NCBI GenBank assembly: GCA_021773835.1
Contig: JAJFJQ010000028.1
Span: 434,001-498,000, forward strand
Length of the DNA stretch: 64,000 bases
Source: Gammaproteobacteria bacterium
GTDB lineage: Bacteria; Pseudomonadota; Gammaproteobacteria; Ga0077536
Reading direction: 5' to 3'
Positions 38,441 through 44,300 of this stretch are shown here, in pieces (the first letter of the stretch is position 1; every line of letters begins with the position of its first letter). The position numbers were made by a program, and so were the translations under genes. The notes under the pieces were generated by a model that worked only from the letters and a program-made list of their open reading frames with translations, had not been told where the DNA came from and did not search any database.

Positions 38441-40168
38441 TTACGTCGCCACCAACGGTAGGAGGATATGAGACGGGTGCTCGTTGTCTAGGTAGATTTT
38501 TTGTAGCGCAGGTTCCAGCCGAGTCGCGGTGTGTGCGAGTTCACCGGTGTTTGGATTGCGATCGTAGCGTGGAAAGTCACTGGATGTGATCAGCACCCGG
38601 ATCCGATGTCCCGCTTTAAATAACATTGCGGTCGACCACAGACTAACTTCATAGCGGATAATCGCCTGCGGTTCCACCAATTGACGCGTATGTCCATCGC
38701 GCATTGACGCCCGCAGCACGCCGTCACAGACACTGTACGTCGTCCCGTCAGGGTGCACATCGCACAGCTTCACGATCCAATCAGTATCGCGGCCGCTCGT
38801 AGCAGCAAATAAGATTGCGGAAACTTGGCCGGTGACTTCTAAGTCTCGATCTAATGGCTCGGATGTGTGGCACAAGACGTCGCGACGGCCCAGAATCGGA
38901 GCTTGGTCGCGCGGACCAGGCGCATATTGCGGTGGCAGCAGAGTACCGCCGCCACAAGTTGGGCATGGGTCGTTAGGGTCGTACACGTAACTTTTCGGCA
39001 GCGAATTTGGGTTCGGCGTTTGCGGCGATAAGCCGTTTTCCTCGTTAAGAAACCACGGGGTATCAATCGCCCGGGTTAGCGGCCAAGCTTGTTCGTCGCG
39101 CCAACGGTTGCTGCCTTGGATAAAGAGTTTCACCGGCGCTTCTTCGTCGATGCCATTGTGCTCGTCCTTAAGCCATCGATCGAACCATCTCAATTGGAGT
39201 TTAGTGAGATCTTCCTTCAGATCGAGAAACATGCCGTTGCTGCGGAAACCAAAATCAACGTCCCCGACCACATGTAGAAAAGAGGCATGCGCCCATGGGC
39301 CAACGATGAGTTTACTATTCGATCGCGCGGACTCGGAGCCACCGTTGTTGCGCATGCCGTCGAAATGTTCGAGGTCTGAGGCAAGCAATAGATCATGCCA
39401 CCCGGCGATGGTCAAACTCGGCACCTTGACCTGCTCGTGACGGTTCGCGAAGAGCATTGATGCCGTCCATTCATCTGGTACAGGGTGTTTTAGAAATTCA
39501 TAGAAGAACGGAAGAAACGCGTCGTCCCCCGGGCGGGTCGGTTCGAACTCGGATAAGGGAAGCGTCTGTAATACCTCACCGAACGCGTCAACGTCGTCGA
39601 TCAGTTTGACTAGCAACGGCACCATTTCGGCGAGGTCGGGCTTAGCTCGGATCAGCGCCGCCGGCCCGATCGCTCGCATCGCCCACATTGCGAGCGTGCC
39701 GATATTGAGCGCGCCGCCGCGCCAGAAATGGTTGCGCCAAAAATCGTTTGGTGCGGTGGTGGGTGAAATCGCACCAAGTGCGCCATGTCCGGATGCCGCG
39801 GCAAGCCATGATGTGCCGCCCATATACGACAAGCCGTAGCAACCGACCTGACCGGACGCATAGTCTTGCGTTGACGACCACTCAATGCTGTCGTAGCCGT
39901 CGTCGAGTTCATCGCGGTAGGGAAAGAACACATCGCCTTCAGATGCCCAGCGTCCTCGCACATCTTGTATCACCACGGCATAACCGGCCGCAGCGGCGCG
40001 AATAGGGTCCAAGGTCATTGCGGTTATCGGCCACAATTCTTTGTTGTATGGGGTGCGTTGAAGCAGCACCGGGTATTTGCCCGCGGCCGACGGGCGGTAA
40101 ATATCGGCGGCGAGCTGGATCCCGTCGCGCATCGGTATCAGGGTGTTTTTTTCGACTAGGACGGTCAT
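38441..40168 (-). CDS. CocE/NonD family acyl hydrolase (X-Pro dipeptidyl-peptidase S15 type)
   Basis: A 575-residue hydrolase. PMRDGIQLAADIYRPSAAGK at 12-31 and VLLQRTPYNK open the S15 domain; the serine nucleophile is in CYGLSYMGGTSWLAA; IVGPWAHASFLHVVGDVDFG contains the catalytic-histidine region, and the C-terminal 200 residues are the jelly-roll XPD domain (PFDY-type end). Family members hydrolyse acyl esters such as cocaine or nonactin; a CPTCGGG insert near residue 400 is also notable. Its ATG overlaps the padR stop by 4 bases, so regulator and hydrolase are co-expressed. Confidence 0.88.
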   Translation of the reverse strand: MTVLVEKNTLIPMRDGIQLAADIYRPSAAGKYPVLLQRTPYNKELWPITAMTLDPIRAAAAGYAVVIQDVRGRWASEGDVFFPYRDELDDGYDSIEWSSTQDYASGQVGCYGLSYMGGTSWLAAASGHGALGAISPTTAPNDFWRNHFWRGGALNIGTLAMWAMRAIGPAALIRAKPDLAEMVPLLVKLIDDVDAFGEVLQTLPLSEFEPTRPGDDAFLPFFYEFLKHPVPDEWTASMLFANRHEQVKVPSLTIAGWHDLLLASDLEHFDGMRNNGGSESARSNSKLIVGPWAHASFLHVVGDVDFGFRSNGMFLDLKEDLTKLQLRWFDRWLKDEHNGIDEEAPVKLFIQGSNRWRDEQAWPLTRAIDTPWFLNEENGLSPQTPNPNSLPKSYVYDPNDPCPTCGGGTLLPPQYAPGPRDQAPILGRRDVLCHTSEPLDRDLEVTGQVSAILFAATSGRDTDWIVKLCDVHPDGTTYSVCDGVLRASMRDGHTRQLVEPQAIIRYEVSLWSTAMLFKAGHRIRVLITSSDFPRYDRNPNTGELAHTATRLEPALQKIYLDNEHPSHILLPLVAT

Positions 40169-40614
40169 TTCACTGTATTTCCGGTAGCAGCGGGTTTTTT
40201 CTTGGTCGGTGACTTTTCGGCCGCTGGTGGAGACTTCGAATCGGCTTTTCCGTCATCGTCACCCACGCACGATGGTGTTGCACCGGCAATCAATTGTTCG
40301 ACCATCGCCTTATGCGTATCCAGGATCTTCAACCAATTCTGCAAAAACAGCGATCCTGCGCTCGTCAGGCTGTACATTCGGCGCGCCGGACCGTTGAGTG
40401 AGGTGTCCCACATGGAAGCGACCAGACCCATGGCTTCCATGTGGCGCAGCGTCCGGTATATCGTGCCCTTGTTATAGTGCCCCAGCCCTGCCTCCTCGAG
40501 CCGCTGCGCGAGGTCATAACCATAGGCGGTCCAGCCCTTTAGCATGGCTAGCAGGTTCGCGGTCAACATATCGCTGGCCGCGTGCGCGCCAGGTTTATTC
40601 GACTGTTTGGCCAC
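40165..40614 (-). CDS. PadR-family transcriptional regulator
   Basis: A 149-residue regulator. The N-terminal winged helix is clear (MLTANLLAMLKGWTAYGYDL, KGTIYRTLRHMEAMGLVAS, RRMYSLTSAG), followed by a dimerisation helix and a Lys/Pro/Ala-rich tail. I start at GTG 40614, which follows GGGAGGG by 6 bases. The frame also has an ATG at 40650, but that lies inside the promoter palindrome and would precede the predicted transcript start. It is divergent from the phasin gene and is the natural candidate to bind the palindrome at 40640-40682, controlling itself, the CocE-like gene and the PHA operon. Confidence 0.87.
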   Translation of the reverse strand: MAKQSNKPGAHAASDMLTANLLAMLKGWTAYGYDLAQRLEEAGLGHYNKGTIYRTLRHMEAMGLVASMWDTSLNGPARRMYSLTSAGSLFLQNWLKILDTHKAMVEQLIAGATPSCVGDDDGKADSKSPPAAEKSPTKKKPAATGNTVK

Positions 40615-40639
40615 AAATTCCCTCCCTGTCGGGACGTTA

Positions 40640-40682
40640 AAGGTTGACATCTAAATGCAAGTTGCATATATATGTCAACCTT
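40640..40682. promoter_or_regulatory. 43-bp nested palindrome with symmetrical divergent promoters (probable PadR operator)
   Basis: Outer arms AAGGTTGACAT (40640-40650) and ATGTCAACCTT (40672-40682) are perfect inverted copies. Inner arms ATGCAA/TTGCAT flank a central G at 40661, with equal 4-base spacers. Rightward, TTGACA (40644-40649), a 17-base gap and TATATA (40667-40672) make a near-ideal sigma-70 promoter for the phasin operon. Leftward, TTGACA (40673-40678 complement), a 17-base gap and TTTAGA (40650-40655 complement) form a matching promoter for padR. Binding here would block both. Confidence 0.85.
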
Positions 40683-40747
40683 GTTTGCACTGCACCATTT
40701 TTTGGGATGGCAATTGGCCGCCCAATTTCTATAAAGGGGACATAACT

Positions 40748-41194
40748 ATGGCAACGAAATCCAAGACAGAGACTAAGGTAGAAGATGCGGTTAACGAGAC
40801 TGCGGAGAAGGTTGGTAAGACAGTCGAAAACGTACTGGATAAGCTGGTCGAGAACCAAGCTCGCTTGACCGAAGCCGCGACCACCGCACGAGACCGCTCA
40901 CGCCGAGTGACCGACGAATATTTGCGCTCGCTGGCCGAAACGCAACGCGATGTGTTGGACTTGAGCAAGAAGCTAGCGTCGAATCCTACCGCCTATAACA
41001 GCAACATCGAGGCATTTCTTGAATCGACGACTGCGACCCAGTCACGGGCGATGGAAATCACCAAACTGTTTTATCGTGAGCAAGCCGACGCGACTGCAGA
41101 ATTCCAGAAGCTCGTCGCCCCGCTGTTCGAATCGACCAAAGGGTTCGCCGATATCAGCAAGAATATGCAGGCGTTCTGGCCGAAATCAGCCTAA
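40748..41194 (+). CDS. Phasin-like polyhydroxyalkanoate granule protein
   Basis: A 148-residue helical protein starting at ATG 40748, with AAGGGGAC upstream. A long amphipathic/coiled-coil region (VEDAVNETAEKVGKTVENVL, ARLTEAATTARDRSRRVTDE, AETQRDVLDLSKKL) is followed by a second helix and a hydrophobic-aromatic end (FADISKNMQAFWPKSA). This is phasin-like in size and composition. It leads the operon with phaC, so it probably coats PHA granules. About 70 bases of leader separate it from its promoter. Confidence 0.8.
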   Translation: MATKSKTETKVEDAVNETAEKVGKTVENVLDKLVENQARLTEAATTARDRSRRVTDEYLRSLAETQRDVLDLSKKLASNPTAYNSNIEAFLESTTATQSRAMEITKLFYREQADATAEFQKLVAPLFESTKGFADISKNMQAFWPKSA

Positions 41195-41266
41195 GGCACA
41201 AGCTCAAGAAATGACGACATCATCTCGGAGTTCGCTTCATCACCAGTCGCTAGCGGACTCGTGCAG

Positions 41267-42076
41267 ATGAATGCCACGTCAATTCCAGATCACGGTGGGG
41301 AGTCTGCAATAGAAGATTTTACCGATCCCTTTGCCCACGACCCATCGGTCGAACAAACCATCACGCCGTTATGGAAAGAGGCAAGGTGGGGAATCGAATG
41401 GGCACGCCTTAGACTTAGCCGGGTCTATTACGGCGTCGGCGTGAAGCGCGGCGATCGGTCCCCTATTGTCCTGGTGCCGGGATTCATGGCGGGGGACGCG
41501 ATGATGCTCGAGCTGCATTGGTGGTTGCGTCGGATCGGCTACCGCTCGTATTTGTCCAACATTGTCTGGAATAACGATTGCCCGGATAAAACAGCGCAGG
41601 CTCTTGCGCGCCGCGTACGCGGCGTACAAGAACGCACTGGGGAAAAGGTTACCTTGGTTGGCCATAGTCTGGGTGGGTTACTGGTAAAGAGCGTTAGCCA
41701 AGATCACCCTGATATCGTCAAGAGCGTGGTCACCATGGGATCGCCGTTTAAAGAAATTGTTAAAGCGCACCCCGCGGTGATCGGGATCTGGGACCGGTTG
41801 AAGATTACGCAAGGTGGATTGATCGGCCGTAATCTCAACCTTTCTTGTGGAACCGGTCACTGTACCTGCGGATTCGTCCGCAACATGATGCAACCACAAG
41901 ACACGGCACCGCCTCAGTTCGCCATATTTTCGAAAGGTGATGGCGTGGTCGACTGGACGAGCTGTATCGAAGATGACGAGCAATGCAACGCCGAAGTACA
42001 CGGCACTCACACCGGAATGGTTTACAACTCGGAAGTCTTCCGAGCACTGGGTAAACGACTAGCAGATGTGAAATGA
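41267..42076 (+). CDS. Alpha/beta hydrolase (lipase-like) in the PHA operon
   Basis: A 269-residue hydrolase. Motifs: PIVLVPGFMAGD oxyanion region, VTLVGHSLGGLLVKSV nucleophile elbow, FSKGDGVVDW acid and VHGTHTGMVYNSE histidine region, as in bacterial lipases/PGAP1-like enzymes; a CGTGHCTCGF cysteine cluster lies in the cap. A GTG at 41261 is an alternative start. Its place between the phasin and synthase genes suggests a role in polymer turnover, such as intracellular depolymerase or oligomer hydrolase, but that is inference. Confidence 0.78.
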   Translation: MNATSIPDHGGESAIEDFTDPFAHDPSVEQTITPLWKEARWGIEWARLRLSRVYYGVGVKRGDRSPIVLVPGFMAGDAMMLELHWWLRRIGYRSYLSNIVWNNDCPDKTAQALARRVRGVQERTGEKVTLVGHSLGGLLVKSVSQDHPDIVKSVVTMGSPFKEIVKAHPAVIGIWDRLKITQGGLIGRNLNLSCGTGHCTCGFVRNMMQPQDTAPPQFAIFSKGDGVVDWTSCIEDDEQCNAEVHGTHTGMVYNSEVFRALGKRLADVK

Positions 42077-42113: not shown

Positions 42114-42515
42114 ATGAGCGAAGACGAAATAATCGACCCAATCCGACTTTGGCGGGAATGGATGATCAAATCCGAGAAGCAATGGAGCGACCACCTCACC
42201 GAATTGATGGGTGATGAGCGCTTTTCCAAAGGTATGGGCCGTTACATCCAAGAAGGCCTGCATTCCCATCGTATCTTCAGTGATGGCATGGCGCAGTACC
42301 TATCGAGTCTTAACCTCCCATCACGTGCTGACGTCCTCGACGTCGGCGACCGTTTGGGTCAAATCGAAGATACGCTGGCCGGCTTACAGGTCGAGATCCG
42401 TGAACAGCGAGCGCAACTCACTCGGTTGGCAAATACGGGTGTTGCCCCAGTCGATACCGACCAACCCAAACGACCGAGCCGAACTAAGCAACCGCCGACG
42501 AAAGCAAGTTCATGA
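42114..42515 (+). CDS. Short PhaE-like subunit of class III PHA synthase
   Basis: A 133-residue protein whose ATGA end overlaps the phaC start. It has a Trp-rich helical N-terminus (IRLWREWMIKSEKQWSDHLT), a central FSKGMGRYIQEGLHSHRIFS, then LNLPSRADVLDVGDRLGQIE followed by a coiled coil (DTLAGLQVEIREQRAQL), and a basic disordered tail. LNLPSRADV and the coiled coil resemble the C-terminal part of PhaE. Standard PhaE is about 350 residues and class IV PhaR about 200, so this is a strikingly reduced partner. Confidence 0.7.
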   Translation: MSEDEIIDPIRLWREWMIKSEKQWSDHLTELMGDERFSKGMGRYIQEGLHSHRIFSDGMAQYLSSLNLPSRADVLDVGDRLGQIEDTLAGLQVEIREQRAQLTRLANTGVAPVDTDQPKRPSRTKQPPTKASS

Positions 42516-43612
42516 GTACGTTGGCGCAGACAAGTCGCCAGGCGCCGGTAGACGATACGTTCGAATCGCACGTTGGGCGCACCGTTGAGCGGGCGATCTC
42601 GCGCAATATCCCCGGCCTGCGGATCCCGCAAACGGAATCAGAACTCGACGTCGGTACAACGCCAAAGGACCTGATTTATTCCCGCGACACAGCGCGCCTG
42701 TATCAATATCGGCCGCTGCTCGACGAAATCTACCGTGTGCCGCTGTTAATCGTTATGTCGCCGGTGGCAAAGGGCTATATTCTCGATCTGGCGAAAGGAC
42801 AAAGCTTCGTCGAATACTTTCTGCTGCAGGGCTACGACGTTTACATGATCGACTGGGTCGCGCCGCGTCGCGAGCACGCAGCTCTTGGATTCGATAATTT
42901 CGTCTGCGACGTGGTCGGTGACGCGGTCAACAAAGTGCTCGAGGTTTCAGGCGAGCCGGATCTTACGATGATCGGTTATTGCATGGGCGGCATGTTGGCC
43001 TCGATGTATACGGCGCTAAATCCGGACGGCGCGGTTAAAAATCTGGCGTGCTTTACCACACCGGTCAATGCTGATGGCATGACCCTCTATAAGCGCTGGG
43101 CCGAGGCCAAGAGTTTCGACATCGACCGTCTGGTCGATGAACTCGGGATAATTCCTGGGGACATGGTCAATGCCTCGATTCAGGCGCTGCGACCACTGCA
43201 GAAATCTGCTGGCCAGTTGAATTTGCTCAATAACGTGCACAACGACGCGTTCGTTAAAGCGCAATTAACGTTTGATCGCTGGGCAAGCGACCAGCTCCCG
43301 ATCCCGGGCGAAGTTGCTCGGGGAATGTTCAAAGATTTCTTGATGGACAACAAATTCGCCTTGAATGCGTTTGAACTACGCGGCGAAACGGTCGACCTCG
43401 GTAAGATTACGGTGCCGTTTCTGCATGTTGCCGCTGAATACGACCATATCGTACCGACCGCTGCATCGAAAGATTTGATATCAATGGTCGGCAGCAAAGA
43501 CAAACAAGAGATCGTGGTGAAAGGCGGCCACGTCAGCCTTGTCGCCGGCGGCAATGCCATCTATCGTTTGTGGCCGAAACTCGACGAATGGTTGCGAGAG
43601 CGAGGGACATGA
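42512..43612 (+). CDS. phaC: Polyhydroxyalkanoate synthase, class III type
   Basis: A 366-residue synthase, the short class III/IV length. Catalytic triad: Cys157 in MIGYCMGGMLAS (lipase box with Cys for Ser), Asp311 in AAEYDHIVP and His340 in GGHVSLVAG. YQYRPLLDEIYRVPLLIVMS and YMIDWVAPRREH are conserved PhaC regions. It polymerises hydroxyacyl-CoA into PHA. The ATGA overlap with the PhaE-like gene indicates a two-subunit enzyme. Confidence 0.93.
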   Translation: MSTLAQTSRQAPVDDTFESHVGRTVERAISRNIPGLRIPQTESELDVGTTPKDLIYSRDTARLYQYRPLLDEIYRVPLLIVMSPVAKGYILDLAKGQSFVEYFLLQGYDVYMIDWVAPRREHAALGFDNFVCDVVGDAVNKVLEVSGEPDLTMIGYCMGGMLASMYTALNPDGAVKNLACFTTPVNADGMTLYKRWAEAKSFDIDRLVDELGIIPGDMVNASIQALRPLQKSAGQLNLLNNVHNDAFVKAQLTFDRWASDQLPIPGEVARGMFKDFLMDNKFALNAFELRGETVDLGKITVPFLHVAAEYDHIVPTAASKDLISMVGSKDKQEIVVKGGHVSLVAGGNAIYRLWPKLDEWLRERGT

Positions 43613-43700
43613 CCGGCACGACCTTCGACGTAGGCCACCCTTGCACAACACGGCACCCAAAACGGTGATCCAAAATAGAATAAAAAGCGGAGACAGTAAA

Positions 43701-44300
43701 ATGCCAGAGTTGAGTATTGCCGAAGTGCTTAAAAACTACCCATTGGCGGTCGAATTAAAGGACCGTGCGTTCACGCTGCGTCCAATGGTTGCCGAGGATG
43801 GTCCCGCACTGTTGGCGTTCGCTGGCGAACTACCACCTCATGACATCATGTTTATGCGTCGCGATATCACGAAGCAAGCGGGGATCGACCAATGGGTTCG
43901 CGATCTCGAAAGCGGACATATTCATTCGGTGCTCGCTGAGGACGAGTTTGGCGTCGTCGGTTATTCCACTATTCACTTAAACGATTTGGAATGGTCCGCC
44001 CACGTTGCTGAAATGCGTGTAACGACCGCCGATCGCGCGCGTGGCCTTGGCCTCGGACGTTTATTGACTCGCGAGGCCTTCAACATTGCCCTGTCACTTG
44101 GTATTGAGAAAGTCGTTGCCCGGATGACTACCGATCAGACCGGAGCACGTGCTTTATTTCACGAACTGGGTTTTCAAAACGAAGCCCTACTGAAAGACCA
44201 CGTAAAAGATCGCGATGGCGCGCGCCATGATCTGTTACTCATGGCCTGCGAAGTGCAATCCTTCCTCTCTACTCGAAACGCCTACGGTGTCGTCAACTAG
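43701..44300 (+). CDS. GNAT family N-acetyltransferase
   Basis: A 199-residue acetyltransferase. Start at ATG 43701, 9 bases after GGAG; an upstream open stretch overlaps the phaC end in another frame and is not coding. The acetyl-CoA binding loop is RARGLGLGRLLTREAFNIAL (about 113-132), followed by ARMTTDQTGARALFHELGFQ, the usual motif-B/A end. The N-terminal half is degenerate. Substrate unknown. It lies 88 bases after phaC, possibly still in that operon. Confidence 0.85.
   Translation: MPELSIAEVLKNYPLAVELKDRAFTLRPMVAEDGPALLAFAGELPPHDIMFMRRDITKQAGIDQWVRDLESGHIHSVLAEDEFGVVGYSTIHLNDLEWSAHVAEMRVTTADRARGLGLGRLLTREAFNIALSLGIEKVVARMTTDQTGARALFHELGFQNEALLKDHVKDRDGARHDLLLMACEVQSFLSTRNAYGVVN

Follow-up and report, generated by a model that had tools for sequence, protein, structure and literature searches.

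A putative PhaQ-type PadR operator and an adjoining candidate PhaR site at a mirror-image divergent promoter of a gammaproteobacterial PHA operon

The closest described counterpart of the locus considered here is PhaQ of Bacillus (Priestia) megaterium, a PadR-type repressor encoded beside a phasin and a PHA synthase of the PhaR-PhaC type; it obstructs RNA polymerase and so represses its own promoter, and it is PHB-responsive (reviewed in PMC9049629). On phaP1 of Ralstonia eutropha and on the phasin genes of Sinorhizobium the regulator is PhaR (PHB_acc, PF07879), a protein different from the synthase subunit of the same name, with a TGCRNYGCA-type site at the phasin start (PMC12849132, PMC12542648); at phaP1 it has sites immediately before the -35 and at the start (PMC12849132). 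Escherichia coli acrA and acrR are read from overlapping divergent promoters, at which an autorepressor acts in both directions and polymerases compete for one site (PMC12825309). The window (the whole 64-kb stretch of gammaproteobacterial DNA analysed here) shares the PadR-phasin-synthase neighbourhood with Priestia and the site at the phasin start with the PhaR systems, and its overlapping divergent promoters may, like those of acrA/acrR, be subject to autorepression in both directions and to competition between polymerases. PhaQ and PhaR are both already known; what is new is their predicted stacking on one symmetric promoter.

Read directly, positions 40640-40682 are AAGGTTGACAT CTAA ATGCAA G TTGCAT ATAT ATGTCAACCTT, with the axis of symmetry at 40661 (Table 1). 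Around this axis 19/21 positions pair, which makes it the top inverted repeat of the window (runner-up, 16 pairs); in 60 simulated windows of equal size, generated as first-order Markov sequences, the best inverted repeat averaged 15.1 pairs and reached 18 at most. The original prediction of a 43-bp palindrome with 11-bp outer and 6-bp inner arms is therefore borne out. The PadR protein probably starts at GTG 40614, with a Shine-Dalgarno sequence AGGGAGGG at 40620-40627, and not at the ATG at 40650 inside the palindrome, so that the palindrome would be non-coding. It is better read as a series of nested elements than as one palindrome.

Table 1. Sequence features of the padR-PHA intergenic region and flanking genes (positions within the window).
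Feature	Position	Strand	Evidence or remark
Outer arms, 11 bp	40640-40650/40672-40682		
Inner arms, 6 bp	40655-40660/40662-40667		
Phasin/PHA promoter, -35 TTGACA	40644-40649	+	Within left outer arm (40640-40650)
Phasin/PHA promoter, -10 TATATA	40667-40672	+	In right half of predicted operator; predicted start ~40679
padR promoter, -35 TTGACA	complement of 40673-40678	-	Within right outer arm (40672-40682)
padR promoter, -10 TTTAGA	complement of 40650-40655	-	In left half of predicted operator; predicted start ~40643
Predicted PhaQ-type PadR operator, core dyad CATCTAAATGCAAGTTGCATATATATG, axis 40661	40648-40674	.	Matrix, R1 model, conservation
Candidate PhaR (PHB_acc) site TGCACTGCA	40686-40694	+	First transcribed bases of phasin mRNA (predicted)
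PhaQ-like PadR regulator, 149 aa, GTG start	40165-40614	-	PF03551, TIGR02719, identity to PhaQ
Phasin-like protein, first PHA-operon gene, ATG 40748	40748-41194	+	Position, synteny
Alpha/beta hydrolase	41261-42076	+	PF00561; conserved in 21/36 family genomes
PHA synthase small subunit, PhaR(Bmeg)/PhaE-like	42114-42515	+	TIGR02132 E 4.7e-9, below cut-off
PHA synthase PhaC	42512-43612	+	TIGR01836 E 9e-86, 288 bits vs cut-off 365; PF07167

Elements of two overlapping divergent promoters are present. That of the phasin direction joins TTGACA to TATATA across a 17-bp spacer (10/12 matches), and that of padR joins TTGACA to TTTAGA across an equal spacer (9/12 overall, the -10 matching at just 3/6 positions; in L004/L007 it is TATAGA). 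The earlier description of TTGACA, a 17-base spacer and a good -10 on each strand thus holds for boxes and spacers but not for the weak -10 on the padR side, and with so poor a -10 the transcription of padR may be weak or may begin elsewhere. Both promoters are missed by a simple promoter scan because it requires A at -10 position 2 and T at position 6. Among the 15 gammaproteobacterial loci that encode PadR, ten carry TTGACA-17-TATA[GTC]A facing the phasin gene at a constant distance from the axis (its TTGACA at -17), a mirror-position TTGACA for padR is found in six (the window, L003, L004, L007, L013 and L060), and both -35 arms occur in three only (the window, L013/L058 and L060), so that full mirror symmetry is not the rule among PadR-encoding relatives. 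Bidirectional promoters of E. coli share a -10, whereas the window has its own -10 and -35 in each direction, fully interleaved, with the predicted operator dyad supplying both -10s. Such complete overlap implies that the two polymerases would exclude each other, an effect that in E. coli bidirectional promoters is of consequence only where one of the two directions is strong (PMC12825309).

Relatives of the PadR protein are encoded in 15 of the 36 family genomes, the window's own included, and, at ~52% identity, on five Dehalococcoidia/Chloroflexota MAG contigs (L066-L070), where padR is divergent from a phasin-like gene and the operator is present. Annotated phaQ-phaP and phaRBC are found on a plasmid of Priestia megaterium, and the best odd-centred dyad of the phaR-phaQ intergenic region there lies across the -10 of a TTGACA-17-TAAATT phaQ promoter. 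This Priestia site is itself predicted: no published PhaQ operator sequence was found in the literature searched, the original PhaQ paper lying outside it, and one may have been published. A symmetrised weight matrix trained only on the Priestia and Dehalococcoidia sites, and so on Bacillota and Chloroflexota (the Dehalococcoidia sites being centred by eye with the gammaproteobacterial sites already seen), ranks 40648-40674 first in the 64 kb at 31.5 bits, with the next site at 5.8 and a background of mean -35 and sd 9.5 bits; the window site thus matches the predicted phaQ operator, leading by ~26 bits. The top site was the corresponding operator in 15/15 PadR-encoding gammaproteobacterial loci tested (8 to 37 bits), and eight loci from genomes lacking PadR gave no site above 5.4 bits. 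Model R1, built from 16 sites and searched over the 36 whole family genomes, returned one site per genome, beside padR, in exactly the 15 genomes that encode PadR, and no site in the 21/21 that lack it. Since some of the sites it found had been used to build it, R1 is less independent than the matrix. On this evidence the operator at 40648-40674 appears tied to this PadR and is predicted to be bound by it.

A search for the palindrome elsewhere in the genome had been proposed as a check; carried out with an IUPAC pattern and with R1, it gave a single site, by padR (21.6 bits with R1), so that the operator would serve a local switch and not a regulon. Near matches inspected as hints of a wider regulon fell in coding sequence or beside unrelated genes, and the loose pattern TNNNTGCANNNTGCANNNA had chance occurrences in many genomes and was uninformative. 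Priestia and the window have a common operator dyad (CATCTAGGTGTAAATTACACATATAG and CATCTAAATGCAAGTTGCATATATAT, respectively) across the -10 of a TTGACA promoter, in an autoregulatory layout. They differ in gene arrangement, phaQ and phaP being co-transcribed in Priestia with phaRBC divergent over a ~390-bp gap, whereas padR and the phasin gene of the window diverge from one symmetric promoter; in the regulator itself, which is 35-41% identical and falls below the TIGR02719 cut-off; and in the predicted PhaR operator stacked alongside in the window.

The window's PadR has the winged-helix PadR domain (PF03551, 59.8 bits against a gathering score of 27) and shares 40.8% identity with P. megaterium PhaQ along 98 residues. 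For it and its relatives alike the best NCBIfam model is TIGR02719 (repress_PhaQ), although its score of 85.4 bits lies below the cut-off of 139.35 (Priestia PhaQ, 283 bits). In a PadR tree it is grouped with PHA-linked PadRs; the PhaQ branch is poorly supported and branches are long. The neighbourhood is of the PhaQ type, a phasin with a PhaR/PhaC-type PHA synthase whose small subunit is closest to the Bacillus PhaR synthase subunit; the phasin is assigned by position only, its ORF matching TIGR01985 weakly (E 0.019) and no Pfam family above cut-off. Operator, gene neighbourhood and family taken together make the regulator most likely PhaQ-like, a label qualified by the TIGR02719 shortfall and by the tree, and PHB or a PHB-linked signal is then the first candidate ligand, ahead of phenolics. 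Two other gammaproteobacterial PadRs (L050/L051, ~60 bits to TIGR02719) were set aside, being without PHA context and without the operator.

Some further features of these neighbourhoods may be recorded. An S15/CocE-type hydrolase gene (window 38441-40168) overlaps the end of padR and is directly divergent to the phasin gene in PadR-less relatives. A GNAT acetyltransferase gene (window 43539-44300) comes after the PHA synthase gene, and similar ones lie by the PHA cluster in L066, L069 and L070 of the Dehalococcoidia. The joint occurrence in L066-L070 of a PhaQ-like PadR, a divergent phasin-like gene and the operator suggests transfer of a PHA cluster between phyla.

The original prediction overlooked a PhaR-type site adjoining the palindrome. 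TGCACTGCA fits the PhaR core YGCRNYGCR published for Sinorhizobium (PMC12542648) and, with two mismatches, the Ralstonia consensus YTKNTGCRNYGCANMAR (PMC12849132). It stands at the phasin promoter of a genome that encodes PhaR (PF07879; C7:64171, 104.9 bits) and in which a PhaR-like site is also found before the thiolase gene phaA that precedes phaR. All 14 PadR-encoding gammaproteobacterial loci whose sequence reaches far enough have a PhaR-type site between +25 and +34, counted from the axis; the regulator is present in 32/36 family genomes, and a search of the five Dehalococcoidia genomes did not find it. In genus g9, which has the same operon without PadR, five of the six loci examined (L072, L074, L080, L084 and L085) carry a pair of PhaR-like sites, one at -27 and one at +26, and the sixth (L086) has that at +26 only. 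The site at -27 sits directly upstream of the -35, and g9 is mostly like R. eutropha phaP1 in this respect, whereas the window has the start-proximal site only, its core promoter being taken by the putative PhaQ-type operator. An extra PhaR-like site was seen on the padR side, at -36/-37 from the operator axis, in L005, L014, L016 and L017, where PhaR may control padR.

The g9 loci also help to separate the two parts of the palindrome. In L074 the outer arms retain 10/11 pairs and the inner arms 1/6, in L080 the figures are 9/11 and 0/6, and both keep the phasin -10; in the remaining g9 loci the outer symmetry is weaker as well. Loss of the inner arms and retention of the outer arms in genomes without PadR argue for the inner dyad as PadR operator and for the outer arms as -35 boxes, and because the half-operator TGCATATAGA doubles as a -10, operator and promoters can be accommodated in one palindrome. 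The original proposal of one PadR operator over two divergent promoters, linking padR to phasin and PhaC, is thus favoured by conservation across phyla and by co-occurrence (15/15 versus 0/21 genomes), but its extension to the whole 43 bp is not, the repressor site being most likely the inner ~27 bp. That PadR contacts the outer TTGACAT arms too, with two dimers or one extended site, would suit the near perfect 43-bp symmetry of the window and the strong symmetry of L013/L058 and L060; we nevertheless judge it improbable, as most PadR-encoding relatives retain one TTGACA arm only, L074 and L080 keep the symmetry of the arms that this reading adds and not that of the core, and the -35 of Priestia and Dehalococcoidia is ~10 bp more distant from a core that is unchanged. 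It is very improbable that the site is simply a symmetric bidirectional promoter that has no dedicated repressor and owes its symmetry to facing -10 and -35 elements: in E. coli promoters of this kind are frequent and show pseudo-symmetry (PMC12825309), and outer symmetry does survive without PadR in two relatives, yet the inner TGCA-N3-TGCA half-sites are no promoter element, are conserved in three phyla and follow the presence of PadR (15/15 versus 0/21 genomes). Origin by chance, without function, is close to inconceivable, given a symmetry unmatched in the 60 simulated windows and a conserved core that already contradicts it; no points in its favour were found.

We hold with good confidence that 40648-40674 is a PhaQ-like PadR operator across two overlapping promoters, through which padR and the PHA operon would be repressed until PHB brings relief, with PhaR gating the PHA side. 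From the elements observed, their conservation and the co-occurrence of operator and regulator, we infer binding, repression, PHB sensing and polymerase exclusion in the following form. A PadR dimer on the inner dyad would cover both -10 elements and the spacers, blocking RNA polymerase in both directions and so repressing padR and the phasin-hydrolase-PhaR/E-PhaC operon. Accumulating PHB would, by analogy with PhaQ, release the repressor from the operator; the freed phasin-side promoter, being the stronger, would capture most polymerase and thereby limit padR transcription further, while PhaR at the start of the phasin transcript would form a second PHB-responsive block on the PHA side only. 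A rather unlikely alternative keeps PadR on the inner operator and gives it a non-PHB ligand (hydroxyacyl-CoA, a phenolic or a lipid) or an activating role in one direction. Ligands differ across the PadR family, and the window's PadR falls under the PhaQ equivalog cut-off; however, the content of the cluster (phasin-like gene, PhaR/E-type subunit and PhaC) and the operator match the PHB-responsive PhaQ system, and the overlap of this operator with the promoter core speaks for repression.

Opinion is evenly balanced on a broader reading of this PHB-relieved switch, according to which two unrelated PHB-sensing repressors, PhaQ/PadR of the Bacillus type and PhaR of the proteobacteria, stacked inside 50 bp of a single mirror-image promoter, would together gate PHA granule synthesis and give AND-type release, with a tendency across the family for the PhaQ operator to swap with the PhaR site upstream according to the presence or absence of PadR. 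PhaQ-type control of bioplastic storage would be widened beyond Bacillus to include Gammaproteobacteria and Dehalococcoidia, with an operator of ~27 bp that can be tested, and PhaQ and PhaR, as a rule reported from separate bacteria, apparently share one promoter. The PadR-less sister genera separate operator from promoter within one palindrome, which would make the locus a compact setting in which to test how granule status is sensed by two regulators, and the palindrome site is a possible part for engineered PHA production.
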